Shown here: positions 9,403-64,000 of the stretch, piece after piece | Position numbering within the stretch: position 1 is the first letter of the stretch | Layout: each line of letters starts with the position of its first letter | Assembly: GCF_003269295.1 (NCBI RefSeq) | Contig: NZ_QLTT01000008.1 | Coordinates: forward strand, 329,227-393,226 | Length of the DNA: 64,000 nucleotides | From: Lentzea atacamensis | Lineage (GTDB): Bacteria > Actinomycetota > Actinomycetes > Mycobacteriales > Pseudonocardiaceae | Reading direction: 5' to 3' | The notes under the pieces: model-generated | Seen by the model: the letters and a program-made list of their open reading frames with translations, nothing else | Databases searched by the model: none | What the model was told of the DNA's origin: nothing | Program-made: the position numbers and the translations under genes

Positions 9403-9482
9403 GCTCCAGTCTATGCGCGGACCGGAGCACGGGGATGTGCGGTCGAAACCCGATCAGTGGAACATTGATCTTCGGGGAAACA

Positions 9483-11615: not shown

Positions 11616-11684
11616 GGCTCACAGGGTGGGGGCGGTTTGTTGCAACCGTCAACGAACCTAACCGTTTCCGGTCGTGTTCCGGTA

Positions 11685-11704
11685 TTGACAAATGAATTTG
11701 TCAA
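11685..11704. promoter_or_regulatory. Palindrome over the start codon of the HTH gene
   Basis: The bases ttgacaaatgaatttgtcaa form perfect 9-bp arms around a 2-base centre and contain the ATG at 11692. This is a good candidate autoregulatory operator; it also makes the true start of the HTH gene uncertain. Confidence 0.6.
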
Positions 11705-12775: not shown

Positions 12776-12933
12776 CCGGTCGTTGGGAACCGCCGAACGA
12801 GTCCGTCCGGTGGTCGTGTGGCGTCCGCCGTTCGCGCGTTCTCGATTGCTCCTTTCTCCGGTACGGGTGTGAATCTTGATCACTAGCATTCTCCGGGTCC
12901 TGTCCCATTTCGGGAAGTTCAAGGAGAACAGTT

Positions 12934-13398: not shown

Positions 13399-13423
13399 CG
13401 GCACTCTCCGAGGCGCTACGCCA

Positions 13424-48549: not shown

Positions 48550-49935
48550 ATGACCGCGTTGCCGCGGTACCGCACCGACCCGAGCCCTCGCGCGCTGGCC
48601 ACCCGGCTGCGGGCACTGCTCACCGCCCAGGTCCCCGTCGCCTGCGGTGTCTACGCCGGCCTTTCCGCTCCCGTCGCCACTTCGCCGTTGCACGCGAAGA
48701 TCACACACGCCATGGCTCAGGCGTTCGTGACGGGCACTTCGGCGGGTGTGCCCCGCTTCGAACCGCCACCGTCCGCACAGCTGCGGCTGCTCACGGCGGC
48801 GAGCTGGGGGCGGCTCGACGGAGTCGGCGTGGACATGACGACGTTCCCCGTCGACCTCGCCTCCGAACTGTGGTGGCGGGTGCACGAACGCGCGCTCGGC
48901 TCGTTGCGCACGGCCGAACGCCGCGTCGCCTGCGATCTGTTGCTGCGCCTGGGATATCCGCAGCGCGCGGCGTCGGTGATAGGGCTGACCGTGATCGACG
49001 CGCACCGGCAGGTGCTCTCGCCGGAGCTCGCCATGGAACAGCTCGCGGTGTTGCGCTGCCACCTCCCGGCGTCCGCGGTCGAAGCGATGGCGTTGCGGGG
49101 AGCTCGTTCCGGGTTGCCGGCCGAGACACGGCGCGACCTCGCGCTGTTCGTGGTGTTCCGCAACGCGGCCCGCGGAGCCGACTCCACGTCCCTGCGGGCC
49201 GGTGCGGCACTGGCGGTGAAGGCGTCCTCGGAGCTGCCGCACAACGGTTTCACCATGGCGCTCCACCGCGCGCGGCTGTACCGGGCGATCGCCGCGGTTC
49301 CCTTCGTCCGGCGCGACATCACCGAGACGCACCGGCTGCTCGGACGCGCGCTGGAATGCCTGACGTCGATCACGCCGGGCTCGGCGGAGATGGACCAGCT
49401 GGCGTGGGCGGACGAGGCGTACGCGCTGCACTGCTTCCTCGTGCGGACCCACCTGGCCATCGGCCTGGGACAGCGCGCGGCCGGGTACGCCGACGAGCTC
49501 GTCGAGCTCAGTCCCGGCGACCACCGGACGTGGGCGTTGCGCGGCGACGCGCTGGCCGCGTGCGGCCGGCTGGACGACGCGATCGAGGCCTACACGCGTG
49601 GTGTGGCACTGGGTGGCTGGGGCGCGGCGCGAGCTGCTCACCTCCGCGGGTTCCTGCTGGACCGGCTCGGGCGGGTGGCCGAAGCCGCCGAGGACTACGT
49701 GTTGTCGCGACGCATCGACCCCACAGCGTCGGTCGTGTCAGCGAGCATCGGCCGTCACCAGCAACCTGAGGTGCGCGCGGAGCCAGGTGGCCGCGGCCGG
49801 GCCGTCGGCGAACGCCGTGACCTGGGCCGCCGCCGTGCGCAGGCCCGTGCGGTGCAGGTGCGCGGCGACCTCGCGCACGCGGGCGAGCAGGCTGTCCGTG
49901 AGGTTGTCCAGTCCTCGATGCGCCGCATCGGCTAA
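48550..49935 (+). CDS. TPR-containing protein
   Basis: A 461-aa, mostly helical protein. TPR-like units are clear at about residues 300-385 (LAIGLGQRAAGYADELVELSPGDHRTWALRGDALAACGRLDDAIEAYTRGVAL, then LRGFLLDRLGRVAEAAEDYVLSRRIDP). The family-like part ends near residue 400. The last 60 residues are Arg-rich and read on the strand opposite the SWIM gene for 198 bases, so an earlier stop may have been lost. GGGAGG precedes the ATG. Cotranscribed with the ArsR-like gene; a regulator partner is possible. Confidence 0.72.
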   Translation: MTALPRYRTDPSPRALATRLRALLTAQVPVACGVYAGLSAPVATSPLHAKITHAMAQAFVTGTSAGVPRFEPPPSAQLRLLTAASWGRLDGVGVDMTTFPVDLASELWWRVHERALGSLRTAERRVACDLLLRLGYPQRAASVIGLTVIDAHRQVLSPELAMEQLAVLRCHLPASAVEAMALRGARSGLPAETRRDLALFVVFRNAARGADSTSLRAGAALAVKASSELPHNGFTMALHRARLYRAIAAVPFVRRDITETHRLLGRALECLTSITPGSAEMDQLAWADEAYALHCFLVRTHLAIGLGQRAAGYADELVELSPGDHRTWALRGDALAACGRLDDAIEAYTRGVALGGWGAARAAHLRGFLLDRLGRVAEAAEDYVLSRRIDPTASVVSASIGRHQQPEVRAEPGGRGRAVGERRDLGRRRAQARAVQVRGDLAHAGEQAVREVVQSSMRRIG

Positions 49936-51561
49936 CACCAGCAACGCGCCGTCGACCGCCGCGCTCAGCGGATCGGACGTGGTGACGCCCGGCGGCAAGG
50001 GTTGCGGCGTGGTGCCGGGCGCCAGGTCCGGCACCACCACGCCCGCGTCGGTGCGCACGGCGAGCGGGTCGACGACCAGCGTGCCGCGGTGCCTGCGGAT
50101 GGTGCCGGTGATCGTCGTCGGGTTGGCGCGCAACGCGGTCGCAAGCGCGTCGAGCGCGTGTGGCGCCACCGCCCGGTGGGTCGCTTCGAGAACGCATTGG
50201 CTGCGGTGGTTCTGGGTGCTGGGTGACGTGTGGTGCAGCGTGGCGGTGAGACGCTGGGCCGCCGGGTCGTAGGCCACCTCCGTCACCTCGCTGACCCGGA
50301 CCACGCGCACCAGTTCCGCCTCGACCCTCGCCCGCACCTGGCGTGGCGGCAGGTCGGCCAGGTGCGCGGCCGCGGCGTCGTAGTCGTCGATCACCAGCGC
50401 CTGCGGCAGATCGTCCCAGGACGTGCCTACCGGGGTGAGCGACGTTTTGGCCACCCTGCTCGTCTTCAGCGTCACCACGCGGCTCGCGCTGCGGGTCGCC
50501 GACTCCGACACGACGTTGGCCGCGGCCAGTTTCTGCCCCGTGCGCAGGGGAGTGTCGCGGTGCACCAGCACCACGTCGCCCGACGCGAAGAACACGTCCG
50601 CGGTGGTGGCGCTGCGCAGGCGTGCACCCAGCGCCGTCAGCCGGACTCGCCGCAACGGTGTCTCCGCGGGTTCGTCGAAGCCGAGGACCTCGGCGCGCGG
50701 GCCGGTCGCGGTGGTCCGCGCGTGCAGCTCGGTCAGCAGCGCGGCGAACCGCTGCGCCTCGTAGTCGGCGCTGCGCCGGCGATAGGCGGTCAGCTGCGCC
50801 AGCAGGTCGGTGATCACCGAGGCCGGCCAGTGCAGGCGCTGCGCGGTCAGGTCGCGGTGCAGGCGCTGCCACGCGACGTCCAGCACCTCGCTCGCGTTGG
50901 TGGCGCCGTCGAGCAGCAGCTGGTCGAGCAGGTCGGTGACGGCGGTCAGATCCGTCGCGGTGGTGGGAGATCCGCCCACGTCGACCGTGTCGGTGCCGAG
51001 TGCGTCGGCCTCGCGGAACGCCCACACCGCGAGCGCCGTCGCCTCGTCGCGGTTGACCGCGTCCGTGTGGACGTAGGACAGGTCGCCGGGCACCAGGAAC
51101 GTCACCGTGCACGTCGGGAGCTCGGCCTGCGCGGTCCGGTCCTCCGCGGTCGGGCGGCGGAGCCTGGCGCGGTAGCCGGCCTGGAACGCCCGGCGGGCGC
51201 GGCGCAGCGTCCGTTCACCCATCAGCGCCGTCAGGTCGTCGTCGGTCACCGCGCCCGGCGACCACAGCTCCGCCGGTGCACCGGCCTCCTGAGTGCGTTG
51301 GTACGCCAGGACAACGGCGATGCGATGCCGGCACACGCCCGCCGCGCCACAGCTGCACCGGGCCGCGTCGAGGGGGGTGTTCGGCGGCAGCGTCGTCGTT
51401 GTGCCGTCCGGGAACTCGCCCTGGACGGCACCGTCCGGATCGGTGCCGAGCACGGGGACGGCCCCCGCGTCGAGCTCCTTGACGGCACGCTTCACCAGGC
51501 CGCGGTTGGCCAGCGCCGCGAGCGCGTCCGGGGTGAGTGCCAGCAGGTCGGGTCTGGTCAC
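49738..51561 (-). CDS. SWIM zinc-finger protein (YehQ-like)
   Basis: A 607-aa cytosolic protein, last gene of the MoxR/VWA operon. The SWIM motif CxCx5CxH (Cys69, Cys71, Cys77, His79, CSCGAAGVCRH) is complete; the remaining 500 residues contain a FLVPGDLSYVHTD segment and mixed alpha/beta regions of no known family. SWIM domains bind DNA or proteins. GTG 51561 overlaps the VWA gene stop as GTGA. Its E. coli counterpart in the yeh cluster is YehQ, also uncharacterised. The last 198 bases overlap the convergent TPR gene. Confidence 0.85.
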   Translation of the reverse strand: MTRPDLLALTPDALAALANRGLVKRAVKELDAGAVPVLGTDPDGAVQGEFPDGTTTTLPPNTPLDAARCSCGAAGVCRHRIAVVLAYQRTQEAGAPAELWSPGAVTDDDLTALMGERTLRRARRAFQAGYRARLRRPTAEDRTAQAELPTCTVTFLVPGDLSYVHTDAVNRDEATALAVWAFREADALGTDTVDVGGSPTTATDLTAVTDLLDQLLLDGATNASEVLDVAWQRLHRDLTAQRLHWPASVITDLLAQLTAYRRRSADYEAQRFAALLTELHARTTATGPRAEVLGFDEPAETPLRRVRLTALGARLRSATTADVFFASGDVVLVHRDTPLRTGQKLAAANVVSESATRSASRVVTLKTSRVAKTSLTPVGTSWDDLPQALVIDDYDAAAAHLADLPPRQVRARVEAELVRVVRVSEVTEVAYDPAAQRLTATLHHTSPSTQNHRSQCVLEATHRAVAPHALDALATALRANPTTITGTIRRHRGTLVVDPLAVRTDAGVVVPDLAPGTTPQPLPPGVTTSDPLSAAVDGALLVLADAAHRGLDNLTDSLLARVREVAAHLHRTGLRTAAAQVTAFADGPAAATWLRAHLRLLVTADAR

Positions 51562-52661
51562 GAGAGTTTCTCCGCCACGAATTCCGCGAGTTGGCCCGGG
51601 GTCATGGCGCCGACGTGGGCGCCCGCGTTCGCGAGGCGCTGGCCCAGCGCGCGGTCGTAGTCCGGGTTCGCCTCCTCGTCCAGCGCCGCGAGGCACAGCA
51701 CGTGCGTGCCCTGTTCGCACAGGCCCTTCACCGTGCGGACCAGGTGGTCCGCGTTGCCGCCCTCGTAGAAGTCGCTGATGAGCACGACGATCGCCCGGCG
51801 CGGGCTGTCGACGAGGCTCGCCCCGTACACGGTCGCCTTGGCGATGTCCGTGCCGCCGCCGAGCTGCACCTTCATCAGCAGCTCGACCGGGTCGGTCACG
51901 TCGGACGTCAGGTCGACCACGTTGGTGTCGAAGGCGACGAGGTGCGTCCTGAGCCCCGGCAGGTTCCACAGGCAGGCCGCGGTGACAGCCGAGTGGATCA
52001 CCGAGCCGGTCATCGACCCCGACTGGTCGACCAGCAGGATCACCTGCCACTGCTCGACGTGCTTGCGGGTGCGGGAGAAGAACTTCGCGTGCTCGATCGA
52101 GAGCTTGCGCTCATCCGGCTGGTAGCGCTGGAGGTTCGCCCTGATCGTGGCCCGGAAGTCGAAGTTGCGCGAGTTGCGGTGGATGCTCGGCCGCCGCGAC
52201 CTCGTGCCGCTGAACGCCTGCCGCACCTCGGTCCGCAGCTTCTCCATGAGCTGCCTGACGACGGCCTCGACGATCTTGCGCGCCAGCGCGAGCACGGCGG
52301 GGTTCATCAGGTGCTTGGTGCGCAGCACCGCCCGCAGCAAGGCCTGGTTCGGCTCGATGCGTTGCAGCACCTCGGGATCCGTGACGACGTCGGTGATCTC
52401 GTACCGCTCGACGGCGTCGCGCTCCAGCCGCTCGATCGTCTCCCTGGGGAAGAGCCGGTGCACCTGGTCCAGCCAGTCCACCGTCTGCAGCACGGAGTCC
52501 TCGTTGCCGCCCTTGCGCACCCCGCGTTCGGCGAGCTCGGGATCGCGCCCGTAGAGCCACTGCAGCGCGGCGTCCCGCGCCGCCGCGGAACCCTGCAGCG
52601 CGCCGGTGCAGCGGGAGGCGGGCTCGCCGAGGATCAGCCGCCAGCGTTCCAGGTCAGTCAT
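51558..52661 (-). CDS. VWA-domain protein (YehP/CoxE-like)
   Basis: A 367-aa cytosolic protein. The C-terminal VWA domain (about residues 200-367) keeps the MIDAS DQSGSMTGS (Asp212) and LGGGTDIAKA, ending VLISDFYEGG; the N-terminal 190 residues are helical and conserved in CoxE-like VWA proteins. VWA proteins of this type act as substrate adaptors of MoxR AAA+ ATPases, as CoxE does with CoxD. ATGA overlap with the DUF5682 gene, GTGA overlap with the SWIM gene. Matches YehP by domain and position. Confidence 0.92.
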   Translation of the reverse strand: MTDLERWRLILGEPASRCTGALQGSAAARDAALQWLYGRDPELAERGVRKGGNEDSVLQTVDWLDQVHRLFPRETIERLERDAVERYEITDVVTDPEVLQRIEPNQALLRAVLRTKHLMNPAVLALARKIVEAVVRQLMEKLRTEVRQAFSGTRSRRPSIHRNSRNFDFRATIRANLQRYQPDERKLSIEHAKFFSRTRKHVEQWQVILLVDQSGSMTGSVIHSAVTAACLWNLPGLRTHLVAFDTNVVDLTSDVTDPVELLMKVQLGGGTDIAKATVYGASLVDSPRRAIVVLISDFYEGGNADHLVRTVKGLCEQGTHVLCLAALDEEANPDYDRALGQRLANAGAHVGAMTPGQLAEFVAEKLS

Positions 52662-54871
52662 GCCAGCCCGCCCTTGGTGAGTAGCGCCTCGACGCGGTGT
52701 TCCACGGCCAGTGCCTCCGCAACGACCATCGGGTCGGCGGTGAGCCGGGTGAGGTTCCTCGCGTCGCCCTCGACGCCGCGGTGGGCGAGGACGGTCCCCG
52801 CGATGGTCTCCCTTTCCCTCGGCGGGAAGTAGCTGAAGGCGAGCCGCAACGCGGGCAGCGCCACCAGGAACTCCTCCTCGGTCATCGCGCTGACCAGCTC
52901 GTCCAGCACCCCGACCAGATCGGGGCTCGCCAGCACCTCTTCGCGGGCCACCGCGAACAACCCCGCGAGCCAGTCGCCGAGCGCCGCGATGCCGCGGACC
53001 TTCCGCACGTCCGGCTGCGCGCCGAGCGCCCAGGCCAGGCCGAGCGCCGCACCCCGCAGGTCCGGCGGCGCCTGCACGTCGTTGCTCACGCGCGTCGCCA
53101 CACCAGTGACATCCGCTGTGTCCAGTGACAGCGCGGCGTTCGCATGCAGCACGGCGTCCCTGGTCGCCGCCATCGTCCTGAGCCGGTGCGGGTCGGCAGG
53201 CGCCGGTCCGCCGTGCAGTCCCTCGATCAGCCACAGCACCCTGGCCGTGCCCGCGTCGATCACCGCGCCCAGCAACGGGTCCTTCGCCGTGCCGAACAAC
53301 CTGTCGTGCCGCCACAACCCGAGCACACCGCTCAGCACGTCGCCGAGTGCGGCAAGGTCACCCGTCTCCTTGACGCCTTCGCCGAGCGACGCCTTGACCC
53401 TCTCCGACAGCGTCGAGATGCCGCACAGCACCGCGTCGAACAGGATCCCCGCGAGGTGCCGCAGCTGCGCGTGCCGTGCCTGCCGTTCGAGCGCCACCCC
53501 GGCCGCTTCCTCCAGCGTGGCACCGTGCTCGGCGGCCTCGATCAACGCCGCCAGCCGCTCCTCGACCGGTGTGAGGAGCCACTGCTCGTCCAGCTGCGGC
53601 GCGGTACCCCCCGACGGCCCGCTCGTGCGCTCGAAGCCGGGAATCCCCAGCACCCGCAACCGGTGCAGGATCCTGCTGCGCTCCAACGCGTCCGGGTCCG
53701 TGAGGTCGAGCGCGATCTTGCCCTCCTGGTCGAGCCCGTGCGCCCGCAGCAGCTGCTGGACGGCGTCGACCAGCGGCGGCGCCGGTGTGCTCGGATGCAG
53801 CCGCCCGACCTTGTCACCCCGCAGCGCCCCGATCATCTCGACGAGCGCCGGGTGCGCGCCGGGCCGCAACGTGCCGCGCCGATTCCACGGCGGCGGCTGC
53901 GTCAGGTCCTCGGAGATCAACGCGCTGGTCAGTCCGTCCAGCACGTCCGTGCGGGCCGGGTGCTCGTGCCCACGCAACCGCGCCAGCGCCCCGGCCTGGG
54001 TGTGCGCGGCGACGAGGTCAGCCGTCGACACCGGCTGCTGCCTGCGGCGCAGCCTCGTCGCCACCGACTCGACGAGCCAGTCCGCCGCCCGCCGCGGCCC
54101 GTTCTCCCAGACCTGCTGGTAGTAGCCGGGTGACGGCATGCCCGACTGGTACCCGGTGAACGCGTCCAGCCGCGCGTGCGAGTACGGCACGAGGTAGCTG
54201 GCGCCGCGCTCGCGTTCCGGCACCCCCGGCCACTCGGCGTCCTCTGCCGGACGGCTGTCGAGCTCGGCCTTCAGCGCGGGCGTGTGGAAGCCGCCGGTGA
54301 CCACGACGACCGGCCTGCCACCCGCGTGCCTCACGGCCGCCCGCACCCAGCGCGCCATGTACTCCTCGCGCGCCGCGTCGCCGTCGTCCGCGGCGGCCGT
54401 GCCGCGCAGGACGTCGAAGTACTCGTCCAGCCCCTTCGGCTCCGGTTCGGACTCGAAGAGGTGGTCCCACAGCACGTCGACGTTGTCGACCGCGAACTCC
54501 CGGCACAACCGCTCGACGACCTCGGCGTAGCGCAGCTCGGCGTCGGCGTACCTGTTCGTGACGCCGTGGAACGCCTCGTGCCACGCGGGCAGGTCGATGA
54601 ACCTGACCTCCGCACCGTGCCGGCGCCCCTCGGTGATCGCCACCCACTCCGGCGAGTAGTCGCAGAACGGCGTCCACGAGGCGTGCTGGTCGGAGTAGCT
54701 GAACAACGCGATCGGCAGCTCGTGTCCCAGCAGCAGCTCGTCGACGCGCTCGTTGAAGTCGGCAGGGCCCTCGATCAGCACGTACGCCGGCCGGTGGGTG
54801 CGGATGGTGTCGGCGACCAGCCGGGCACAGGCGGGACTGTGGTGCCGGACGCCGACGAACACGGCCCCCAT
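52658..54871 (-). CDS. DUF5682 protein (YehM-like)
   Basis: A 737-aa cytosolic protein beginning VFVGVRHHSPACARLVADTIRTHRPAYVLIEGPADFN, the signature start of DUF5682, with later SYSDQHASWTPFCDYSPEWVA, VVVTGGFHTPALKAEL and SYLVPYSHARLDAFTGYQSGMPSPGYYQ. The first 300 residues recall the TraB/Tiki/EreA-like fold (RHHSP, GGFHTP with conserved His), which would suggest a metal-dependent hydrolase; this is a guess. The C-terminal half is helical. Overlaps both neighbours (TGATG with MoxR, ATGA with VWA). Corresponds to E. coli YehM. Confidence 0.88.
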   Translation of the reverse strand: MGAVFVGVRHHSPACARLVADTIRTHRPAYVLIEGPADFNERVDELLLGHELPIALFSYSDQHASWTPFCDYSPEWVAITEGRRHGAEVRFIDLPAWHEAFHGVTNRYADAELRYAEVVERLCREFAVDNVDVLWDHLFESEPEPKGLDEYFDVLRGTAAADDGDAAREEYMARWVRAAVRHAGGRPVVVVTGGFHTPALKAELDSRPAEDAEWPGVPERERGASYLVPYSHARLDAFTGYQSGMPSPGYYQQVWENGPRRAADWLVESVATRLRRRQQPVSTADLVAAHTQAGALARLRGHEHPARTDVLDGLTSALISEDLTQPPPWNRRGTLRPGAHPALVEMIGALRGDKVGRLHPSTPAPPLVDAVQQLLRAHGLDQEGKIALDLTDPDALERSRILHRLRVLGIPGFERTSGPSGGTAPQLDEQWLLTPVEERLAALIEAAEHGATLEEAAGVALERQARHAQLRHLAGILFDAVLCGISTLSERVKASLGEGVKETGDLAALGDVLSGVLGLWRHDRLFGTAKDPLLGAVIDAGTARVLWLIEGLHGGPAPADPHRLRTMAATRDAVLHANAALSLDTADVTGVATRVSNDVQAPPDLRGAALGLAWALGAQPDVRKVRGIAALGDWLAGLFAVAREEVLASPDLVGVLDELVSAMTEEEFLVALPALRLAFSYFPPRERETIAGTVLAHRGVEGDARNLTRLTADPMVVAEALAVEHRVEALLTKGGLA

Positions 54872-55941
54872 CAGCCGGGCAGCAGGTGGCGGGCCCGGTG
54901 CAGCTCCTGCCACTGCTTCCCCTTGCGCCGCGGCGCGTGCTGTTCCAGGTACCGGCGCAGGCGAGCCAGGTCCTCCGCGTTGTCCTTGGCCGCCGTGCCC
55001 GCCAGGCACTCGACGACGTCGGCCGCCGTCCCCGCCTCGCCGCGCAGGAACCACCCGCGCAGCCCCACCGCGTGCGCCACCGACACCGCCTCCGCCGTGC
55101 TCATGACGGTGGTCAGCCGGTCGTTGCCCTCCCTCAGGTCGCGGAACGTCCTGACGAGCACCTCCAGCACGTCCCGCTTCGGCGCGAGCTCGACGCCGGA
55201 CTTGGCGAGCAGCTTCGCCGACTCCTGCTCGACCAGCGCGAGCTCGGTGTCGAAGTCCGCGATGGGGAACACCGTCTCGAAGTTGAACCGCCGCTTCAGC
55301 GCCGCGCTCATCTCGTTGACACCCCGGTCGCGCGTGTTCGCCGTGGCGATCACGTTGAACCCGTCCTGCGCGAACACCATGCCGTCCGGGCCGTTCAGCT
55401 CACCGATCGCCATCACGCGGTCGGACAGCATCGACAGCATGCAGTCCTGGACCTCCAACGGGCAACGCGTGATCTCCTCGAACCGCACCACCTTGCCCTC
55501 GGCCATGCCGCGCAGCATCGGCGCCGGCACGAGCGACCGCGGCGACGGGCCCTCCGCCACCAGCAACGCGTAGTTCCACGAGTACTTGATCTGGTCCTCG
55601 GTGGTCGCCGCGCCGCCCTGGATCGTCAGCGTCGACTCGCCGCTGACCGCCGCCGCGATCAGCTCGGACAGCAAGGACTTGGCCGTGCCCGGTTCGCCGA
55701 CGAGCATCAGCCCCCTGCTGGTGGCCAGCGTGACGAGCGCTCTGTCCACAAGGGACGGATCGCCGACGAACTTCTTCGTGATCCCCCGCTTCTCGTCGCC
55801 CACCACGAACCTGCGCGCGGCTTCGAGGCTCAACGCCCAGCCGGGCGGCTTGGGCGCGGTGTCGGAGTCGCGCAGCCGGGCGAGCTCGTCGGCGTGGCGG
55901 ACTTCGGCCGGCGGGCGCTGCATCGTCTGAGTGCTGGTCAT
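54871..55941 (-). CDS. MoxR-family AAA+ ATPase (YehL-like)
   Basis: A 356-aa AAA+ ATPase. Walker A GEPGTAKS (82-89), Walker B-like VVRFEEITRCP, NVIATANTRDRGVNEMSAALKRRFNFE (sensor 1 and arginine finger), plus a C-terminal lid with the WFLRGEAGTAAD segment. MoxR ATPases form rings that remodel client proteins brought by VWA partners, one of which lies two genes down. The Walker B has Phe-Glu-Glu in place of the usual Asp-Glu. Start ATG 55941 overlaps the WGR-DUF4132 stop as ATGA. Corresponds to YehL. Confidence 0.94.
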   Translation of the reverse strand: MTSTQTMQRPPAEVRHADELARLRDSDTAPKPPGWALSLEAARRFVVGDEKRGITKKFVGDPSLVDRALVTLATSRGLMLVGEPGTAKSLLSELIAAAVSGESTLTIQGGAATTEDQIKYSWNYALLVAEGPSPRSLVPAPMLRGMAEGKVVRFEEITRCPLEVQDCMLSMLSDRVMAIGELNGPDGMVFAQDGFNVIATANTRDRGVNEMSAALKRRFNFETVFPIADFDTELALVEQESAKLLAKSGVELAPKRDVLEVLVRTFRDLREGNDRLTTVMSTAEAVSVAHAVGLRGWFLRGEAGTAADVVECLAGTAAKDNAEDLARLRRYLEQHAPRRKGKQWQELHRARHLLPG

Positions 55942-58900
55942 GACTGCAGGGACTCCAGTTCGGAAAGGAGCTCGGACACGGTGATCGGGTCGACGTCGAA
56001 GGTGCGCGGCGCGTTCTTCGGCGCGGACCAGTCGCCGCTGCCGGTGGGAGAGAACCACATGTCGGTGAAGCTGACCTCGGGGAAGACGTCGACGGCGCCG
56101 ACCGCGATGCCGGGGTCGAGGGAGGCGACGAGCGCGCCGCCACCGGGGAACGGCCGCGTGATCCAGCACTCGACCCCGGCGTCCTGCGGTTCGCCGCGGA
56201 CCCAGCCCTTCTTGGTGAGGCCGAGGATCTTGCCGATCGGGCGGGGCACGTTGCTGTACTTCTCGAGGTGGGGGAGCAGGTCGTCACCGGGAGCCAGGAG
56301 GTGGACCGGGCGGCCCAGCTGCGGGAACGGCTGGAGGATCTCGTAGTCGGCGAACACCTCGCCCCAGCGCGGCTCGGCCTGGAGACTCACCGGGTGAGCC
56401 ACCCGGACGACGGCGTTGTCCGGGAGGGTGATCTCGTCGTCGGCGGCGTCGGCGAGGGTGCGGTCCTCCGCCAGCCGGAACGAGAGGCCTTCGTCGGTGA
56501 TCCACACGAGGCGGCGGACAAGGTGCCAGAGCAACGGGTGTGCGGCCAGAACCGTGTGGAACTCCTCCGCGGTCCACGTCCGCTGGTCGACCATGGCACG
56601 TTCGAGACGCTGGATCTGGTCGGCCGCGATCGTCCTGACGTCCTTCTTCAACGCAGCGAACCGCCTGTGCTCCAGCGGTGCCTTGTCCTGGTCGTCCTTG
56701 GCGGCTGGCTTCGGGAGATCCTTGCGGCGCTTGCCGTCCGGGTCGAGCACGAACGGCTTGAGCTGCTCGTCGAAGCCCACGGTGAACCGGCGGGGCCCGT
56801 AGTCGATCACCAGGGTCGCGGCGTCGTCCAGGCCCAGGCGCGGGACGAGGCGGTCGGACAGCTGGTCGCGGCTCAGGCCCAGCTCGGCGGCGATCTGGGC
56901 GATCTTCTCCTGGGCGCGGGTCTTGAGGCCCTTGAACGACACCTTCTCGGCGATGCTGTTCAGGTGCGACAGGGCGACCTCGGTGCCGATGTCGGCGAGC
57001 ACGTCCAGCCCCGCGACCGCCCTGGCGTGCTGGCTCTCGCCGGGCCAGTTGCGGATCAGCGGAGACAGGGCCCGGACCGTCTCGTCGTTGCCGAACCAGC
57101 CGAGCGCGCTCAACGCCCAGCTCTCCTTCGACGGCCCGCCGGCCTGCAACCAGTGCTCGAAGACGGCCCACGCGAACGCCGCGAGCGATGCCGGGTCGAG
57201 AGCCTCCCTGGCCACCGGCAGCCCGGCGTAGATCTCGCCAGGCTTGGACAGTGCCGCCGTCATGAGCAGGTGCCCGGTGGCCTCCGCCGGCAGGGCGTGC
57301 GCGCGGTCGCGGAGCAGCACCTGGGGCAGCAGCCGGGTGTCGGCCCACTCACCGATCACCGGCAGCTTGGTGGGCAGCACGTCGAGCGGGTCGACGGACA
57401 ACACGACGTCGATCGCCGTCTCCGCGCCGCAGGACGCGGCGATGGACTTCACGTCCACGCCGATGCCGTGCAGGTGTCGGATCGCGGCCTCGGCGTTGCG
57501 GCGCGCGGTGCCTGGCGTGCCGGCCGCCGCCGGGATGAGCAGCCGGGCGGCCAGTTCGCGGTGCCGGGCCAGCCAGGCGAGCCCCCAGCGCCTGGCCTGC
57601 CTGGTCCTCGCGAACCAGTCGGCCATCACGGCAGCCACCTCGGCGGACGCGAAGGGCAGCAGCACCACACCGCCCGTCGCGGGGGTGGCCTGGCCGAGCC
57701 GCAGCAGGGCGGGCACGGCGTCGACCCCGAACCGGGCGGCGAGCCGCTTGCCCCAGTCCTCGAAACCGTAGGAGTGCGTCGGCTTCCACTCCGCGACCAG
57801 GTGCCGCACTTCCGCCTCGGGCGCGAGGAGGAACAGTTCGCTGTCGAAGTAGCCGGCCCGGCCCGCGAGGTAGTCCCCGAGCAACGTCTGCCAGCTGCGG
57901 TCCGAGTACCAGTCGTGGCCCGACTCGAGCCACTTCTCGCGTTCGCCCGGTTCCCAGACCACCGTCGCGTCCGGCACGGGGAGATCCGCCACCACCACGG
58001 GCTTCACCGGCGGACGGCGCCGCAGCCACGGCGGCGAGGCGAGCAGCGGCGGCAACAGGTCCGTGCCCGCCTCCGGCACGACCTGGCCCTCGGACGCGGC
58101 GAGCAGCGTGGTGACCTCGGCCGGCACGTCGAGCGACGGATGTGACAGCAGGTGCGCCTTCAGCAGCTGTCGCGCTTCCTCGCTCTGCTCGACCCGTTCC
58201 ACGAGCAGCCGCGCCGCCCGCCGCGGGAACGCCGTCATCGCGGACAGCAGCGCGGGCCGCACGTACTTGGTGTCGTGGCGGTCGAGCAGGATGGTGAACG
58301 CCTCGTCCGTCGGCAGGACCGCGAGGATCTTCAGCGCCAGCTTGCGGCGGTCCGCGACCTGGTACTGCTCGTCGAGCTCCGCCGCGAGCATCGGAGCGAT
58401 GGCCGGCCCCAGCACGTACAGCGCCGTGTAGAGCACGAAGGCAGAGCTGGGCAGCGACCGGCCGACCTTGACGAACTCCTCGTACGTGCTGGCACTGCAC
58501 GGCAGCAGCCACCACGGCGACACGTAGGACTGGCGGCACACCTCGTCGAACCAGTCCGCCCGCGACGGCACCAGGAACGACCGCAGCTGCCGCACCTCGA
58601 GCGTGGCACTCAACCCCGCCAGCGCGGCCTCCGCGGCCTCGACTTCCGCGTCACCGGCGACCGCCAGCGCATAGCGGACGGCGATGAGCATCTGACCCTC
58701 GACGTCGGTACGACCGGCGTGGAAGTGCCCCTTCCGGCGGTGCAGGCGGGTACCGGTCCACTTCTGCCGCCGCTCGTTCCACTCCTCCGCGAACGTCAGC
58801 GCGACGAACTCGATGACCGCGACGGCGGCGAACGCCGCGCCGTGGTCGGCGATCCAGGCGTGCACCGACGCCGGCCCGGACGACGTGATGGCCGCGATCG

Positions 58901-59456
58901 CCGCCGCGCCAACGGGGTTCGCGTTTCCGGCGAGGTGTTCTTTGGCCGCGTCGACCAGATCGGCGTTCGGGTTGTGCGCGGAGAGCGCGCGCTCGATCGT
59001 GGCGGCCTTCTCGACGATCTGGAGCCGGGCCTCGGCGGCTTTGGCGTGGTCGACCGAGAACTCCGGTGCCGGGTCGAACCCGCGCTGCCGCACCACGTCG
59101 CGCAACCAGGCTCTGGGCATGACCCAGGTGTCCTCGTCGACGACCGGTTCCGGCTTGGCAGCGGCGCCGGTGGGTTGCGCGGCTGCGCGAGCGGCGGTCG
59201 GCTGGGCGGGTGCGGGCTGGGCAGCCGCCGGAGCCTGAGCGGCCGTGGCCGAGCCGACCGCGACGTAGCCCTTCTTCTCCTTCTCCCCCACCAGTTTCGC
59301 GACGTGCGCCTCGGCCGCCTCCGCGGACGCCAGCTCCTTGGTCTGGGTCTGGCCGGCCGTCTCCAGCCGTCCGAAGCGGACGCTCACAGAGGATCCTTCC
59401 CGGCCGATCTCCCAGAACTTCGCCGAGCTGCCCGCGACGAGCTCCCACCTGCGCAC
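55938..59456 (-). CDS. WGR-DUF4132 protein, copy A (YehI/MolR-like)
   Basis: A 1172-aa cytosolic protein. Residues 1-80 are a WGR domain (RRWELVAGSSAKFWEI, VSVRFGRLETAGQTQTKELAS), with FGR in place of WGR; an Ala/Pro-rich linker (about 85-125) follows, then a long HEAT-like helical body and a DUF4132 domain near 865-1050 (LVIDYGPRRFTVGFDEQLKPF, RLERAMVDQRTWTAEEFHTVL). WGR domains in PARPs contact DNA. GTG 59456 is chosen because AGGAGG lies seven bases upstream, the paralogue starts alike, and the predicted promoter at 59492-59514 excludes ATG 59489. First gene of the MoxR/DUF5682/VWA/SWIM operon. Confidence 0.92.
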   Translation of the reverse strand: MRRWELVAGSSAKFWEIGREGSSVSVRFGRLETAGQTQTKELASAEAAEAHVAKLVGEKEKKGYVAVGSATAAQAPAAAQPAPAQPTAARAAAQPTGAAAKPEPVVDEDTWVMPRAWLRDVVRQRGFDPAPEFSVDHAKAAEARLQIVEKAATIERALSAHNPNADLVDAAKEHLAGNANPVGAAAIAAITSSGPASVHAWIADHGAAFAAVAVIEFVALTFAEEWNERRQKWTGTRLHRRKGHFHAGRTDVEGQMLIAVRYALAVAGDAEVEAAEAALAGLSATLEVRQLRSFLVPSRADWFDEVCRQSYVSPWWLLPCSASTYEEFVKVGRSLPSSAFVLYTALYVLGPAIAPMLAAELDEQYQVADRRKLALKILAVLPTDEAFTILLDRHDTKYVRPALLSAMTAFPRRAARLLVERVEQSEEARQLLKAHLLSHPSLDVPAEVTTLLAASEGQVVPEAGTDLLPPLLASPPWLRRRPPVKPVVVADLPVPDATVVWEPGEREKWLESGHDWYSDRSWQTLLGDYLAGRAGYFDSELFLLAPEAEVRHLVAEWKPTHSYGFEDWGKRLAARFGVDAVPALLRLGQATPATGGVVLLPFASAEVAAVMADWFARTRQARRWGLAWLARHRELAARLLIPAAAGTPGTARRNAEAAIRHLHGIGVDVKSIAASCGAETAIDVVLSVDPLDVLPTKLPVIGEWADTRLLPQVLLRDRAHALPAEATGHLLMTAALSKPGEIYAGLPVAREALDPASLAAFAWAVFEHWLQAGGPSKESWALSALGWFGNDETVRALSPLIRNWPGESQHARAVAGLDVLADIGTEVALSHLNSIAEKVSFKGLKTRAQEKIAQIAAELGLSRDQLSDRLVPRLGLDDAATLVIDYGPRRFTVGFDEQLKPFVLDPDGKRRKDLPKPAAKDDQDKAPLEHRRFAALKKDVRTIAADQIQRLERAMVDQRTWTAEEFHTVLAAHPLLWHLVRRLVWITDEGLSFRLAEDRTLADAADDEITLPDNAVVRVAHPVSLQAEPRWGEVFADYEILQPFPQLGRPVHLLAPGDDLLPHLEKYSNVPRPIGKILGLTKKGWVRGEPQDAGVECWITRPFPGGGALVASLDPGIAVGAVDVFPEVSFTDMWFSPTGSGDWSAPKNAPRTFDVDPITVSELLSELESLQS

Positions 59457-59491
59457 TGCCGTACCTCCTGGGTCAGGTTCCGATGTCATGG

Positions 59492-59514
59492 ACCGTACTG
59501 ATGGGGTCTGACAA
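59492..59514 (-). promoter_or_regulatory. PafBC/RecA-NDp-type promoter of WGR-DUF4132 copy A
   Basis: On the minus strand it reads TTGTCAGAC, eight bases, TACGGT. This fits the tTGTCRgtg-N8-TAnnnT pattern of LexA-independent DNA-damage promoters of mycobacteria as I remember it. The -10-like TACGGT ends 35 bases before the GTG start, placing the transcript start about 29 bases upstream of the gene. Confidence 0.65.
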
Positions 59515-59529
59515 TTTTTGGTGCAACGC

Positions 59530-62500
59530 TCACGCGCGCAGGGACTCCAGTTCGGACAGGACCTCGGAGACGGTGATGGCGTCGAGCTCGACGGTGGACG
59601 GGGCGTTCTGCTGTACAGACCAGTAGCCGTCGCCGCTGGTGGAGTACCAGAGCTCGGCGAACTTGATCTCCGGGAAGACGTCGACGGCGCCCACCGCGAT
59701 GCCGGGGTCGAGAGAGGCGACGAGTGAGCCACCGCCGGGGAACGGGCGGGTGATCCAGCACTCGACGCCGGCGTCCTGGGGTTCGCCGCGGACCCAGCCC
59801 TTCTTGGTGAGGCCGAGGATCCTGCCCACCGGGTGGGGCTCGTCGCGGTAGTTCTTCAGGCGGGTCAGGAAGTCCTCGCCCGGTGCCAGCAGGTGCACCG
59901 GGCGGCTCAGCTGCGGGAACGGTTGCAGGATCTCGTAGTCCGCGAACACCTCGCCCCAGGCGCCCAGACAGTCCCGGAGGTCGGCCGGGTGCGCCACGCG
60001 GACCGTCGCGCCCTCGGGGAGGGTGATCTCGTCGTCGGCGTCGTTGGCGAGGGTGCGGTCTTCGGCCAGGCGGAAGGACAGGCCCTCGTCGGTGATCCAG
60101 ACCAGTCGGCGGACGATGTGCCACAGCAGGGGATGGGCGGCCAGGACCGTGTGGAACTCTGAGGCGGTCCAGGTGCGCTGGTCGACCATGGCGCGTTCGA
60201 GGCGGTGGATCTGGTCTGCTGCCACGGCTCGGACGTCTTTCTTCAGCGCCGTGTAGCGCTTGTGTTCTTGCGGTGCCCGGTCCTCGTCGTCGCGGGCGCC
60301 GGGTTTGGGGAGGTCCTTGCGGCGCTTGCCGTCCGGGTCGAGGACATAGGGTTTGAGCTGCTCGTCGAAGCCGACGCGGAACTGGCGCGGGCCGTAGTCG
60401 ATCACCAGGGAGGCTTCGTCGTCGAGGCCGAGGCGCGGGACCAGGCGGTCGGCGAGCTGGTCGCGGGACAGGCCCAGTTCGGCGGCGATCTGCGAGACCT
60501 TCTCCCGGGCGCGGGTCCTGAGGGCCTTGAACTTCACCTTCTCGGCGATGCTGTTCAGGTGGGACAGGGCCACCTCGGTGCCGATGCCGGCCAGGACGTC
60601 CAGCCCTGTCACGGCCTTGGCGTGCTGGCTCTCGCCCGGCCAGTTGCGGATCAGCGGGGACAGCGCGCGGACCGTCGTGTCGTCGCCGAACCAGCCCAGC
60701 GCTGTGAGCGCCCAGCCTTCCTTCGACGGTGCACCGACCTCCTGCCACCGCTGGAAGACGGCCCACGCGAACTCGGCCAGCGAGTCCCGGTCGAGCGCGT
60801 CGCGGACGATCGGCAGGCCCGCGTAGACGTCGCCCGGCTTGGACAGGGCAGCCGTCATCAGGAGATTGCGGGCGGCCTCGGGGGACAGGGCGTGCCTGCG
60901 GTCGCTCAGCAGGACCTGCGGGAGCAGCCTCGTGTCCGCCCACTCGCCGATGACCGGCAGCTTGGCGGGCAGCACGTCGGCGGGGTCCACCGACAGCAGC
61001 GCCCGCAGGCCTGCGGCTGACTCGGCATCGGGAGCGACGGCGACGACGTCCACGCCCATGCTCTGGAGCTGGCGGATCGCGGCCTCGGCGTTGCGGCGCA
61101 GGGCACCCGGTGCGCCCAGTGCGGCGGGGATGAGGAAGCGGGCGGCCGTCTCGCGATGCCGGCCGAGCCAGTCGAGGGCCACGCGCCGGGCCTGCTTGAG
61201 ACGCACCAGCCAGTCGGCCATCAGCGCGGCCACCTCGGGGCTGGCGAACGGCAGCAGGATCACGGCGGCGTTCGTGGCCGACTCGACGATGCGCAGCAGC
61301 GGGGGCAGCGCGTCGAGGCCGAATCGCGCGGCCAGCCGCTTGCCGGCAGGCTCGGAGCTCCAGCCGAAGTTCGGCTTCCAGTCCGCCAGCAGGTGCCGCA
61401 CCTCGTCCTCGGGCGCCATCAGGAACAGGTCGTTGGCGCGGAAGCCGATCCGGCGAGCCTCGTACTCCTTCAGCAGCTCCCGCCAGTCGTGGCGGTTGCT
61501 CCAGCAGGCGGCTTTCAGCCATTCCTCGCGTTCACCCGGCTGCCACACGACCGACGGCGCGGGCACCGGGACGTCCGGCACCACGACCGGCTTCACCGGA
61601 GCCCTGCGGTGCAGCCACGGCGGCGAAACCAGCAGCGGCGGCAACGCTTCCGCCGGTGCTTCTGGCACCAGCGCGGAGTCGATCGGCGTGAACCCGGCGG
61701 GCACCTCCAGCTGCGGGTGCGTCACCAGGTGGACGCCCAGCAACTTCCGCAGCTCGTCGTTGCCGGACGACCGCTCGGCCAGCAGCCGGGCCGCCCGCGC
61801 CGGGAACGCGCCCATCGCCGACAGCAACGCGGGCCGCACGTACTTGGTGTCGAGACGATCGAGCAGGATCGTGAACGCCTCGTCGGTGGGCAGCGCCGCG
61901 AGGACCTTGAGCACCCGCTTGCGGCCGTCCGCGAGTTGGTGTGGCCTGTCGAGCTCTTTCGCGAGCAACGGCGCCACGGCCGTCCCGAGCACGTACACCG
62001 CGGTGTGGAGGATGAACGTGCTGCCGGTCAACGACGCCTCGGCCTGCATGAACTCGTCGTAAGTGCTGGCGCTGCAGGGGAGAAGCCACCAGTGGGTCAA
62101 CGAGTTCGGCTGCTGACAGGCCTCGTCGAACCAGTCGGCGCGCGACGGCACCAGATAGGCGCGGGCCATCACCGCGTCGAGCCCGGTCTTGCGCTCCAGC
62201 ACGGCTTCCGCCGCGTCGCGCCCGGCGTCGTCCGCGACGGCCAAGGCGTAGCGGAGAGCCGTGAGCATCTGGACGTCCACACTCCCGTTGCTCAGGTGCA
62301 CGGGGCCGTAGCGGGACAGGTGGGGTTTGCCCCAATCGGACTTGTGCGGCATCCACGTCGCGTTGACGTGCATGCCGATGCTCTCGATCATCGCGTCCAC
62401 CGCGAACGTCAGCCCGTGGTCGGCGATCCAGTGGTGCACCGTCGCCACGTCGCGCCTCGTCATGACCGCGATCGCCGCCGCTCCAACGGGATTGACGTGC

Positions 62501-63033
62501 CCGGCGAGGTGGTCGCGCGCTGCCTGGACGAGGTCCTGGTCGGACTCCGGCTCGGCCATGACGCGGTCGAGGGTGGCGATCTGCCTGACCGCGCGCTGCC
62601 GGCCCTCGGCGGCCAGTTCGGCGTCGACGGAGAACACCGGTGCCGGATCGAACCCGCGCTGCCGCACCACCTCGCGCAGCCACGCCTCGGGCATGACCCA
62701 GGTGTCCTCGTCGGCGACAGGCGGCTTGGTGGGTGTCTCGGTGGCAGGAGGAGAAGCGAAGGTGGCGGCGGGTTGGCCGGCGTTGTCGCGGTCGGTGCTG
62801 GGCTGCTCGGCGGCGGCAGCCTGGGTTGAGCCGACGGGTCGGTAGCCCTTCTTCTCCTTCTCCGCCACCAGCTTCGCGACGTGGGACTCAGCCGCCTCCG
62901 CAGACGCCAGCTCCTTCGTCTGGGTCTGCCCGGCCGCCCCCAGCCGTCCGAACCGGACGGTCACCACCGACCCGTCGCGGCCGATCTCCCAGAACTTCGC
63001 CGAGCCGCCAGAGACGAGCTCCCATCTGCGCAC
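59530..63033 (-). CDS. WGR-DUF4132 protein, copy B (YehI/MolR-like)
   Basis: A 1167-aa paralogue of copy A: WGR domain (RRWELVSGGSAKFWEIGRDG, VTVRFGRLGAAGQTQTKELAS), a different linker, the same helical body (VPSRADWFDEACQ, LPCSASTYDEFM) and DUF4132 (LVIDYGPRQFRVGFDEQLKPY, RLERAMVDQRTWTASEF). The similarity runs from end to end, so this is a tandem duplication. GTG 63033 follows GGGGG at the same seven-base spacing as in copy A; ATG 63039 would sit almost on the RBS. It has its own promoter of the same type and lies 73 bases before copy A. Confidence 0.92.
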   Translation of the reverse strand: MRRWELVSGGSAKFWEIGRDGSVVTVRFGRLGAAGQTQTKELASAEAAESHVAKLVAEKEKKGYRPVGSTQAAAAEQPSTDRDNAGQPAATFASPPATETPTKPPVADEDTWVMPEAWLREVVRQRGFDPAPVFSVDAELAAEGRQRAVRQIATLDRVMAEPESDQDLVQAARDHLAGHVNPVGAAAIAVMTRRDVATVHHWIADHGLTFAVDAMIESIGMHVNATWMPHKSDWGKPHLSRYGPVHLSNGSVDVQMLTALRYALAVADDAGRDAAEAVLERKTGLDAVMARAYLVPSRADWFDEACQQPNSLTHWWLLPCSASTYDEFMQAEASLTGSTFILHTAVYVLGTAVAPLLAKELDRPHQLADGRKRVLKVLAALPTDEAFTILLDRLDTKYVRPALLSAMGAFPARAARLLAERSSGNDELRKLLGVHLVTHPQLEVPAGFTPIDSALVPEAPAEALPPLLVSPPWLHRRAPVKPVVVPDVPVPAPSVVWQPGEREEWLKAACWSNRHDWRELLKEYEARRIGFRANDLFLMAPEDEVRHLLADWKPNFGWSSEPAGKRLAARFGLDALPPLLRIVESATNAAVILLPFASPEVAALMADWLVRLKQARRVALDWLGRHRETAARFLIPAALGAPGALRRNAEAAIRQLQSMGVDVVAVAPDAESAAGLRALLSVDPADVLPAKLPVIGEWADTRLLPQVLLSDRRHALSPEAARNLLMTAALSKPGDVYAGLPIVRDALDRDSLAEFAWAVFQRWQEVGAPSKEGWALTALGWFGDDTTVRALSPLIRNWPGESQHAKAVTGLDVLAGIGTEVALSHLNSIAEKVKFKALRTRAREKVSQIAAELGLSRDQLADRLVPRLGLDDEASLVIDYGPRQFRVGFDEQLKPYVLDPDGKRRKDLPKPGARDDEDRAPQEHKRYTALKKDVRAVAADQIHRLERAMVDQRTWTASEFHTVLAAHPLLWHIVRRLVWITDEGLSFRLAEDRTLANDADDEITLPEGATVRVAHPADLRDCLGAWGEVFADYEILQPFPQLSRPVHLLAPGEDFLTRLKNYRDEPHPVGRILGLTKKGWVRGEPQDAGVECWITRPFPGGGSLVASLDPGIAVGAVDVFPEIKFAELWYSTSGDGYWSVQQNAPSTVELDAITVSEVLSELESLRA

Positions 63034-63073: not shown

Positions 63074-63096
63074 ACCGTACCCAGGGGGTCTGACAG
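63074..63096 (-). promoter_or_regulatory. PafBC/RecA-NDp-type promoter of WGR-DUF4132 copy B
   Basis: On the minus strand CTGTCAGAC, eight bases, TACGGT: the same layout and spacing as in front of copy A, and conserved bases continue on both sides (GTCTGACA, TTTT). Strong sign that the box is functional rather than chance. Confidence 0.65.
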
Positions 63097-63122: not shown

Positions 63123-64000
63123 TCAGAGCTCCCACCAGAGCGCGGTGTCCGGCGGAAGGAGCAACTGCCCGTCACGCACGCCGTAGTACGAGGACGCCAG
63201 CAGCACCGCGCCCGGATCCGGCAGCGAGACGACCTCGCCGGACAGGTTCACCGCGCACGCGAGGCCGTCCCGCTCGAACCACAGCACGTCGGCTGGCCCG
63301 TCGACCCACTTCACCCCGTCACCGGCACCCAGCGCGGGGTGCTCGCGGCGGATGCGCAAAGCGTTGCGGTAGAAGGACAACATCGAGTCCTGGTCATCCG
63401 ACTGCGCCTCCACGCTGAGCTTCGCCCAGTCCGCGGGCTGCGGCAGCCACGACCCGCCGGTGCCGAACCCGAGCGACGGGCCGGACGCGGTCCACGGCAG
63501 CGGTACGCGGCAGCCGTCACGGCCGCGCTGGGTGTGGCCGGAGCGTTCCCACATCGGGTCCTGCAGCACCTCGTCCGGCAGGTCCAGCACCTCGGGCAGC
63601 CCGAGCTCCTCGCCCTGGTACAGGTACACCGATCCCGGCAGCGCCAGCATCAACGCCAGCGCGGCCCGCGCACGCCGCACACCGGTCTCGCCGCCGCCGT
63701 ACCGCGTCACGTGCCGTTGCACGTCATGGTTCGACAGCACCCACGTGGTAGGCGCACCGACCGGAGCCACCGCCGCCAACGACGAGTCGATCACCGCTCG
63801 CAGCGCGTCGTGCTCCCACTCGGCCGTGAGGTAGTGGAAGTTGAACGCCTGGTGCATCTCGTCGGGACGCAGGTACAGCGCCGTCCGCTCGGCAGAAGGC
63901 GTCCACGCCTCCGCCACCAGCACGCGCTCGCCGGGGTACGAGTCCACAACGGTGCGCCACTCGCGGTGGATCTCGTGCACGCCGTCCTGGTCGAAGAACG
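63123..64000 (-). CDS. GH13 alpha-glucosidase-like enzyme, C-terminal part
   Basis: The gene runs off the right edge, so the N-terminus is missing. The visible 292 residues hold the GH13 motifs VLVAEAW (general acid Glu), LSNHDVQRHVTRYGG (transition-state Asp) and QGEELGLPE, then a C-terminal beta-domain ending PPDTALWWEL. This fits alpha-glucosidase/oligo-1,6-glucosidase types of the GH13_23/30 kind that cleave maltose or isomaltose units in the cytosol. It lies upstream of the WGR-DUF4132 genes on the same strand, 89 bases from copy B, but copy B has its own promoter. Confidence 0.92.
   Translation of the reverse strand, partial: FFDQDGVHEIHREWRTVVDSYPGERVLVAEAWTPSAERTALYLRPDEMHQAFNFHYLTAEWEHDALRAVIDSSLAAVAPVGAPTTWVLSNHDVQRHVTRYGGGETGVRRARAALALMLALPGSVYLYQGEELGLPEVLDLPDEVLQDPMWERSGHTQRGRDGCRVPLPWTASGPSLGFGTGGSWLPQPADWAKLSVEAQSDDQDSMLSFYRNALRIRREHPALGAGDGVKWVDGPADVLWFERDGLACAVNLSGEVVSLPDPGAVLLASSYYGVRDGQLLLPPDTALWWEL

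Follow-up and report, generated by a model that had tools for sequence, protein, structure and literature searches.

A YehL-type MoxR-VWA operon of Lentzea atacamensis with paired promoters of the DNA-damage type

What is the YehL-type operon for? In Escherichia coli it is the gene run yehI-yehL-yehM-yehP-yehQ, and a search of the open-access literature, with subscription papers outside its reach, returned no function for it. An actinobacterial version lies in a stretch of 64,000 nucleotides of Lentzea atacamensis (contig NZ_QLTT01000008.1, positions 329,227 to 393,226 of the forward strand), called the window here. It encodes two WGR-DUF4132 proteins (WGR1 and WGR2), a MoxR AAA+ ATPase, a DUF5682 protein, a CoxE-like VWA protein and a SWIM zinc-finger protein. 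Two copies of a PafBC-type promoter, which responds to DNA damage independently of RecA, precede its genes, and the operon is therefore very probably part of the response to broken DNA. The fuller reading, that it serves the DNA-damage response as a MoxR-VWA remodeller working on WGR scaffolds, is considered probable.

Gene set and promoters of the operon

Five genes of the operon are joined by overlaps of one to four bases (Table 1), and the junctions read ATGA (WGR2/MoxR), TGATG (MoxR/DUF5682), ATGA (DUF5682/VWA) and GTGA (VWA/SWIM). Pfam recovers their families with E-values of 6e-53 and 1.4e-53 for the two DUF4132 regions, 2.2e-33 for AAA_5, 8.4e-106 for DUF5682 and 3.6e-55 for VWA_CoxE. 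The SWIM match, at 17.7 bits, falls just below the cut-off of 19.6, and the protein is recognized by its motif and its alignment to YehQ. A preliminary description made from the letters had named these five joined genes and a second WGR-DUF4132 gene ahead of them, and both claims were borne out. WGR1, the product of that second gene, is 66% identical to WGR2 (blastp), and its gene is separated from WGR2 by a spacer of 73 nucleotides that contains the second promoter-like site. The same description was right to match the operon to yehI-L-M-P-Q: the families and their order agree, with blastp identities to E. coli K-12 of 66% over 355 residues for MoxR and YehL, 59% for VWA and YehP, and 39% for DUF5682 and YehM. 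The SWIM protein aligns to YehQ with 27% identity over 581 residues. Genes, here as well as in the loci of relatives and in other operons, were called with a simple codon-GC script, which placed some starts wrongly.

The families are also kept together, which is the check that the preliminary description proposed. Across 80 reference loci, apart from those that are cut, broken, partial or mis-called, the genes again stand as WGR (one to three or more copies)-MoxR-DUF5682-VWA-SWIM. The reference loci are the best 80 of at least 516 relatives from a scan of named genomes; all are actinobacterial and together they span 1.70 Mb. These loci (L121-L200) have a single WGR-DUF4132 gene or a tandem array of two, three or more, and the number differs from genus to genus as well as inside a genus. 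Broken copies occur in some loci, and in several the extra copies have a promoter site of their own.

The sequence [CT]TGTCAGACCCC....GTACGGT stands 34-40 nucleotides ahead of both WGR starts. The two copies are the only strict PafBC-type sites in the window, where 0.06 would be expected by shuffling. According to PMC5656591, the RecA-NDp promoter has the consensus tTGTCRgtg-8nt-TannnT. Both window sites match its spacing exactly and have A and C at letters 8-9 of the -35 element, where the consensus has t and g. PafBC is described as working via promoters of the RecA-NDp type (PMC6789036; further on PafBC, PMC11804915 and PMC10693628), and one RecA-NDp gene of Streptomyces coelicolor is given as inducible by ultraviolet light (PMC5087735).

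In the 9.3-Mb host genome, the pattern TTGTCAG-N10-TANNNT occurs at 22 sites and its reversed form at one. The proteins downstream of these sites were scanned for WGR2 and 16 others, with five loci (L060, L062, L072, L076 and L079) left out. NCBIfam was applied to ten of them and identified seven as a GyrB-like protein, a DEDD exonuclease/UvrC-like fusion, RecA, UvrA, UvrB, a DnaN-like protein and UvrC; the other three are one ABC ATPase and two proteins without a match. For the remaining six, Pfam returned DUF4240, BNR repeats, nSTAND1, isochorismatase and glyoxalase, with no match for the sixth. Judged by these families, the motif marks a regulon rich in DNA-repair genes, and the operon shares it. 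The regulator is encoded as well. PafA (Pup_ligase) is present, and downstream of it, beyond two other predicted genes, lie two WYL/WCX proteins, one of which has an HTH_PafC domain (E 2.8e-43); PafB and PafC are thus both encoded.

Two side observations concern this regulon. One of the motifs precedes an nSTAND1 NTPase gene (L067, G000:C6:441341-441363), of a kind known from conflict systems. Three sites lie within about 1.3 kb (L059 and L060, G000:C1 at about 97.4-98.8 kb); one downstream protein there is DUF4240 and the next is similar by eye, which may indicate a damage-induced tandem family.

The promoter is found again among the relatives. A site was counted as lying at the operon when it stood on the operon strand, from 300 (strict) or 320 (one-mismatch) bases upstream to 30 bases downstream of a WGR, MoxR or DUF5682 start, or up to 900 bases upstream when no called gene intervened. 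Because their operon reaches the end of the locus, 14 of the 80 loci, all without a site, were set aside, which leaves 66 for both counts. The two groups of 14 differ: the distance rule of the one-mismatch count moved L129 and L130, both with strict sites, into the cut group, and L141 and L153 left it. The strict motif occurs 50 times in the 80 loci: 45 sites lie at the start (5' end) of the operon or its WGR, MoxR or DUF5682 genes, five lie elsewhere, and the reversed form is absent (0 sites). A strict site is present at 41 of the 66 loci, compared with 2 of 822 other genes. With one mismatch allowed and GTC fixed, 60 of the 66 loci have a site; the motif then occurs 116 times, 69 times at the operon and 47 times elsewhere, and its reversed control rises to 33. 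In five Nonomuraea loci and in those of Acrocarpospora and Microtetraspora the form is TTGTCRG-N10-[AC]ATACT, with a different first -10 letter.

Table 1. Coordinates of the window operon, its promoters and a second operon of the same genome (window positions unless a locus is given)
Feature	Coordinates	Strand	Basis or remark
WGR1	59530..63033	-	Pfam WGR and DUF4132; start GTG 63033 or ATG 63039
WGR2	55938..59456	-	Pfam WGR and DUF4132; tandem paralogue of WGR1
MoxR AAA+ ATPase, YehL type	54871..55941	-	Pfam AAA_5; YehL identity; Walker A
DUF5682 protein, YehM type	52658..54871	-	Pfam DUF5682; predicted TIKI-like N-terminal domain (about 1-212) and helical C-terminal region
VWA (CoxE-like) protein, YehP type	51558..52661	-	Pfam VWA_CoxE; intact MIDAS; YehP identity
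SWIM zinc-finger protein, YehQ type	49738..51561	-	CxCx5CxH; sub-threshold Pfam SWIM; YehQ alignment
PafBC/RecA-NDp-type promoter 1, CTGTCAG-N10-TACGGT	63074..63096	-	upstream of WGR1; motif scan
PafBC/RecA-NDp-type promoter 2, TTGTCAG-N10-TACGGT	59492..59514	-	upstream of WGR2; motif scan
Type B operon, own genome, contig C2 (L039)	12811-13917, 11328-12749, 10199-11281, 8068-10206		SWIM-DUF5691-MoxR-DUF5682
PafBC-type site of the contig C2 operon	L039 13978-14000		about 60 nucleotides ahead of the first gene

Upstream of the operon, at 63123-63998 and on the same strand, lies the C-terminal part of an alpha-amylase-family glycosidase gene, cut by the end of the window.

Other versions and counterparts in other phyla

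The window operon (type A) is one of several arrangements of these families. Type B has the order SWIM-DUF5691-MoxR-DUF5682, with a VWA gene adjoining in some genomes. Type C consists of a 648-residue protein without a Pfam match, VWA, MoxR and a 935-residue protein with a DUF5682-like domain. Type D comprises a DUF4132 protein, a 1668-residue protein, MoxR and a DUF5682-VWA fusion. This natural fusion suggests that DUF5682 and VWA work together. A type B operon is also present on contig C2 of the host genome, and like the window operon it combines the core families with a PafBC-type site. In contrast to the window operon, it has no WGR or DUF4132 gene beside it; its gene calls show no adjoining VWA gene, and one is found several kb away on the other strand. 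Its MoxR is 45% and its DUF5682 protein 28% identical to those of the window. For DUF5682 this is further away than E. coli YehM, so the two either parted long ago or arrived independently. No open-access paper was found on DUF5682 or DUF5691, nor one joining "SWIM zinc finger" with PafBC.

When a strict site was sought anywhere in a locus of 13-19 kb, it was present in 15 of 20 type A and all 12 type B loci of the genus, in all eight type B loci of a related genus, in five of six type C loci and in two of three type D loci. Over the further type A-D and other loci, 48 strict sites compare with two for the reversed pattern. In the eight related-genus loci the site is oriented away from MoxR, and in the one inspected it faces a divergent SWIM gene. 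Taken together, the two MoxR/VWA systems with DUF5682 or DUF5682-like domains (L083-L088; L081, L120 and L117), one of them with the DUF5682-VWA fusion and a DUF4132 protein, have a strict site in seven of their nine loci.

The E. coli locus, yehF/yehH-yehI-yehL-yehM-yehP-yehQ, has the same five families in order behind a second WGR/DUF4132 unit. It differs from the window in that this upstream unit consists of a WGR fragment, yehF, and a pseudogene, yehH, in that YehI has no Pfam WGR match, and in that a small gene, yehK, stands between yehI and yehL. The upstream unit, broken as it is in K-12, indicates that paired WGR genes are common to both systems. We know of no PafBC-type control for the E. 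coli operon. The upstream unit is one that we take to be molR. E. coli molR is listed as LexA-regulated (PMC4576408, PMC11039860), and MolR is described as a WGR protein (PMC8533742), in line with its placement at the yeh locus.

In Deinococcus, the same families as in the window stand under a DNA-damage regulator; the difference is that regulator and motif are DdrO and the radiation/desiccation response motif (RDRM), not PafBC. According to PMC8533742, DdrO targets the D. radiodurans gene DR2173 (WGR) and the operon DRA0165-0166 (DUF4132); both have RDRM motifs, and their induction by mitomycin C is listed as dependent on DdrO/IrrE. The operon of D. taeanensis has the order SWIM-DUF5691-MoxR-DUF5682-VWA, with DUF5691 replacing WGR-DUF4132. 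Directly ahead of its first gene stands the RDRM-like palindrome TTACGCCAGAAACATAA (L201 7723-7739). It is the sole match to TTATG-N7-CATAA at up to two mismatches in 25 kb and has one mismatch; against the RDRM consensus as printed in PMC8533742, two mismatches are seen by eye. The role in DNA damage is argued most strongly by this tie of a single set of families to several damage regulators. The links to LexA and DdrO were already published; the actinobacterial promoter evidence and the D. taeanensis site are added here.

Protein models and a proposed mechanism

The catalytic and metal-binding motifs of the MoxR and VWA proteins are intact. The Walker A, sensor and arginine residues and those of the metal-ion-dependent adhesion site (MIDAS) are nearly invariant in 78-80 relatives. 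This holds for the Walker A sequence GEPGTAKS in 78 relatives, and the MIDAS of the VWA protein reads DQSGS ... T271 ... D297. The CxCx5CxH motif of the SWIM protein is invariant in all 65 relatives with letters there (of 76). YehL is counted as one of seven MoxR subfamilies (PMC3893208). The window MoxR falls into it by sequence identity, and its neighbours DUF5682, VWA, SWIM and WGR/DUF4132 stand in the E. coli order. In a search of solved structures by sequence, MoxR drew only weak matches to Midasin and one to an uncharacterised protein, and VWA drew none.

For WGR1, an AlphaFold2 model was obtained with a predicted local distance difference test score (pLDDT) of 83 and a predicted template modelling score (pTM) of 0.62. 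It comprises a WGR domain (about 1-69), a long helical HEAT-like solenoid (about 120-864) and the DUF4132 region (about 875-1163). In VIA-align comparisons, residues 1-69 match 2ra8 with Z 12.5, and residues 1-72 match human PARP1 on a DNA double-strand break (7s6m) with Z 8.3. WGR1 is thus predicted to be a PARP-like WGR domain on a long helical scaffold.

The DUF5682 protein was modelled from a 28-row alignment (pLDDT 87.5, pTM 0.82). In the full-length model, the top five VIA-align rows all cover residues 1 to 205-212. A Tetrahymena complex IV subunit accounts for three of these rows, with Z 9.6-10.4, where Z 7-8 is common background. Campylobacter jejuni ChaN (2g5g) follows with Z 9.4 over 154 residues at 4.9 A, and HopBA1 (5t09) with Z 8.5 over 144 residues at 3.7 A; the absence of a family from these lists does not exclude it. 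ChaN and HopBA1 are listed in the TIKI superfamily, whose active enzymes use two His and two Glu residues and can cleave proteins specifically (PMC6254334). In the DUF5682 protein, H10, H11, E34, E75, E140, E169 and H196 do not vary among the 77-80 relatives in which those positions have letters. In the model, strand 1 would be followed by H10/H11, strand 2 would end in E34, and H196 would come after a later strand. These residues would fit the two-His/two-Glu plan and are candidates for a catalytic role. The N-terminal domain therefore probably resembles TIKI-superfamily hydrolases, with moderate support from the model. In common with ChaN, HopBA1, Ere and TIKI/TraB it would have the fold, the His at strand 1, the Glu at strand 2 and the later His, whereas it differs from them in a helical extension of about 500 residues, in its MoxR operon context and in a sequence similarity below threshold.

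These parts suggest how the system may work. Single-stranded DNA made by damage would activate PafBC and turn both promoters on. The WGR-HEAT-DUF4132 proteins would be readers of broken or damaged DNA and would act as scaffolds. Together, the MoxR ring and the VWA protein, an adaptor that contacts the substrate, would use ATP to remodel their client in the manner of NorQ/NorD or RavA/ViaA. In these known pairs, too, a MoxR ATPase is combined with a VWA protein, and NorD is modelled as plugging a MoxR-type ring with its VWA domain and touching the client through MIDAS (PMC9976466). Unlike what is proposed here, their clients are respiratory enzymes, and the portions of PMC9976466 and PMC3893208 drawn on name no WGR, SWIM or DUF5682 partner. 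The SWIM protein could provide a second contact to nucleic acid or to a repair protein, and DUF5682, as a partner of the MoxR/VWA pair, would probably be a TIKI-like hydrolase. The likeliest job, at a guess, would be the remodelling or dismantling of protein bound at damaged DNA. The gene set, its conserved order, the intact motifs and a promoter motif in common with repair genes are read directly from the sequences, the TIKI-like and PARP-like WGR folds are predictions, and induction, assembly of the complex, binding to DNA, hydrolysis and substrate are inferred.

A bolder form of this proposal is tentative and less likely. The operon might be a bacterial counterpart of the eukaryotic clearance of DNA-protein crosslinks and stalled complexes, in which a PARP-like WGR domain on its HEAT scaffold would sense the break, MoxR-VWA would pull at the stuck protein and DUF5682, in one complex with them, would cleave it as a TIKI-type peptidase. 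Such a system would be switched on independently by PafBC, LexA and DdrO in different phyla, and its versions, at least four (WGR-DUF4132, SWIM-DUF5691 and two more), would have been rebuilt for different lesions or clients.

Weighing the readings

Several results weigh against a DNA-damage role of this design. On the side of the promoters, the 80 reference loci are the closest relatives and thus no even sample. Six of the 66 loci have no site even at one mismatch (L137, L139, L144, L150, L156 and L162). A strict site is missing from five of the 20 type A loci of the genus and from all ten more distant DUF5682 loci (L109-L116, L118 and L119), some of these loci being cut short. On the side of the counterparts, a LexA-like box stands nine nucleotides ahead of yehF, and such boxes are found at chance level (8, with 7.3 expected); since the box is not above chance by counting, the LexA point for yehF rests on the literature. 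In the 180-600 bases covered ahead of each operon, Agrobacterium and Rhizobium lack a LexA-type box even when one mismatch is allowed, and Sinorhizobium has a single one-mismatch match, which is chance level. Iodobacter likewise has just chance-level one-mismatch boxes. On the side of the proteins, no demonstration of DNA binding by a bacterial WGR domain was found in the consulted portions of the cited papers. The TIKI assignment is built on moderate Z values. Foldseek gave no match for the DUF5682 model at E <= 0.001, and the Pfam TIKI families stay below their cut-offs, with PF04187 (ChaN) in eight of 28 members (best E 0.034) and PF01963 (TraB) in two of 28 (best E 0.2). In the window protein the ChaN match spans residues 166-197 only. 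The hhalign probability against E. coli YbaP is 0.5% for the N-terminus, and among solved structures nothing convincingly related to DUF5682 came up by sequence (best E 0.065).

A further point of this kind leads to the first alternative: in PMC8533742, E. coli MolR is linked with molybdate, not with repair, and molybdopterin is mentioned for DUF4132. The operon could then be a chaperone for metal cofactors or enzyme maturation, in which MoxR-VWA inserts a metal in the manner of CoxD/CoxE or NorQ/NorD, with the link to damage explained by a client that is needed at that time. The VWA protein is CoxE-like (E 3.6e-55), and NorQ/NorD and CoxD are maturation factors (PMC9976466, PMC3893208). This alternative is unlikely, however. 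The promoters of the operon are of the DNA-damage type, no molybdenum gene is annotated beside the E. coli operon in 26 kb, and WGR and SWIM domains would seem unsuited to metal insertion. In the results reported in PMC8533742, moeA and moeB are not differentially expressed on DdrO depletion.

The second alternative is a system against phages or for other conflicts, in which the DNA-damage promoter serves as an alarm and DUF5682 as the killing or cleaving effector. MoxR-VWA modules are reportedly found in conflict systems, and the WGR domain matches PADLOC WGR_XIII weakly (E 9.7e-8). That match is confined to the WGR domain; beyond it, PADLOC gave just REase_II at E 0.027 for MoxR and nothing at E <= 0.1 for DUF5682, VWA and SWIM. 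Copies are present in 35 of 72,556 records of a plasmid collection, one of them beside restriction-modification genes and transposases. They extend the range to proteobacteria of the alpha, beta and gamma classes, to Deinococcus and to a few further groups, including two alphaproteobacteria with the order MoxR-DUF5682-DUF4132-VWA-SWIM. Against this alternative, a DUF5682 relative is found in only one of 50,697 phage records.

The distribution is also unlike that of patchy defence genes. DUF5682 occurs in all 24 genomes of the window's genus. By a reading of the scores, the window-type copy is present in 21 of them (once in two pieces) and a second, more canonical copy in all 24. At least part of the operon is matched in 5374 of 5426 E. 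coli genomes, and 3973 hold 80% or more of it in one place. A phylum-wide draw found DUF5682 in 21 of 296 genomes and 12 of 199 genera. The YehL-type operon thus has the look of an accessory system retained by many lineages and not that of a defence island, and a conflict role is doubtful, less probable still than metal insertion. The preliminary description had spoken of a DNA-linked remodelling or conflict system. Its DNA-linked part is strongly and independently supported by the paired PafBC-type promoters and the relatives under LexA and DdrO, whereas its conflict part is not supported, in view of the broad presence, the weak PADLOC matches and the single phage record. The promoters, the second DUF5682 operon of the genome and the TIKI-like domain go beyond that description. 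As a separate observation, in about a quarter of the E. coli genomes no single place contains as much as 80% of the operon; a resistance transposon is described in the E. coli DUF4132 region (metG/DUF4132/yeh), with the region disrupted in 184 ST131 isolates (PMC9334617).

Least probable is a damage-induced checkpoint or cell-death device whose TIKI-like hydrolase would be activated to cleave an essential protein when damage is irreparable. In its favour are the same promoter data, the conserved His and Glu of DUF5682 and the specific cleavage of proteins that TIKI hydrolases can perform (PMC6254334). Against it, Pfam recognised no antitoxin-like partner in the operon, and the genus and E. coli alike retain the operon in the majority of their genomes.

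New elements are the evidence for an operon of the DNA-damage response and a likely TIKI-like domain. The YehL operon is carried by most E. coli and by many actinobacteria. Together with the published facts on LexA (molR) and DdrO (DR2173, DRA0166), the promoters turn a widespread orphan into a testable DNA-damage machine. The hydrolase domain of DUF5682, if true, would give the YehL-type system a chemistry.

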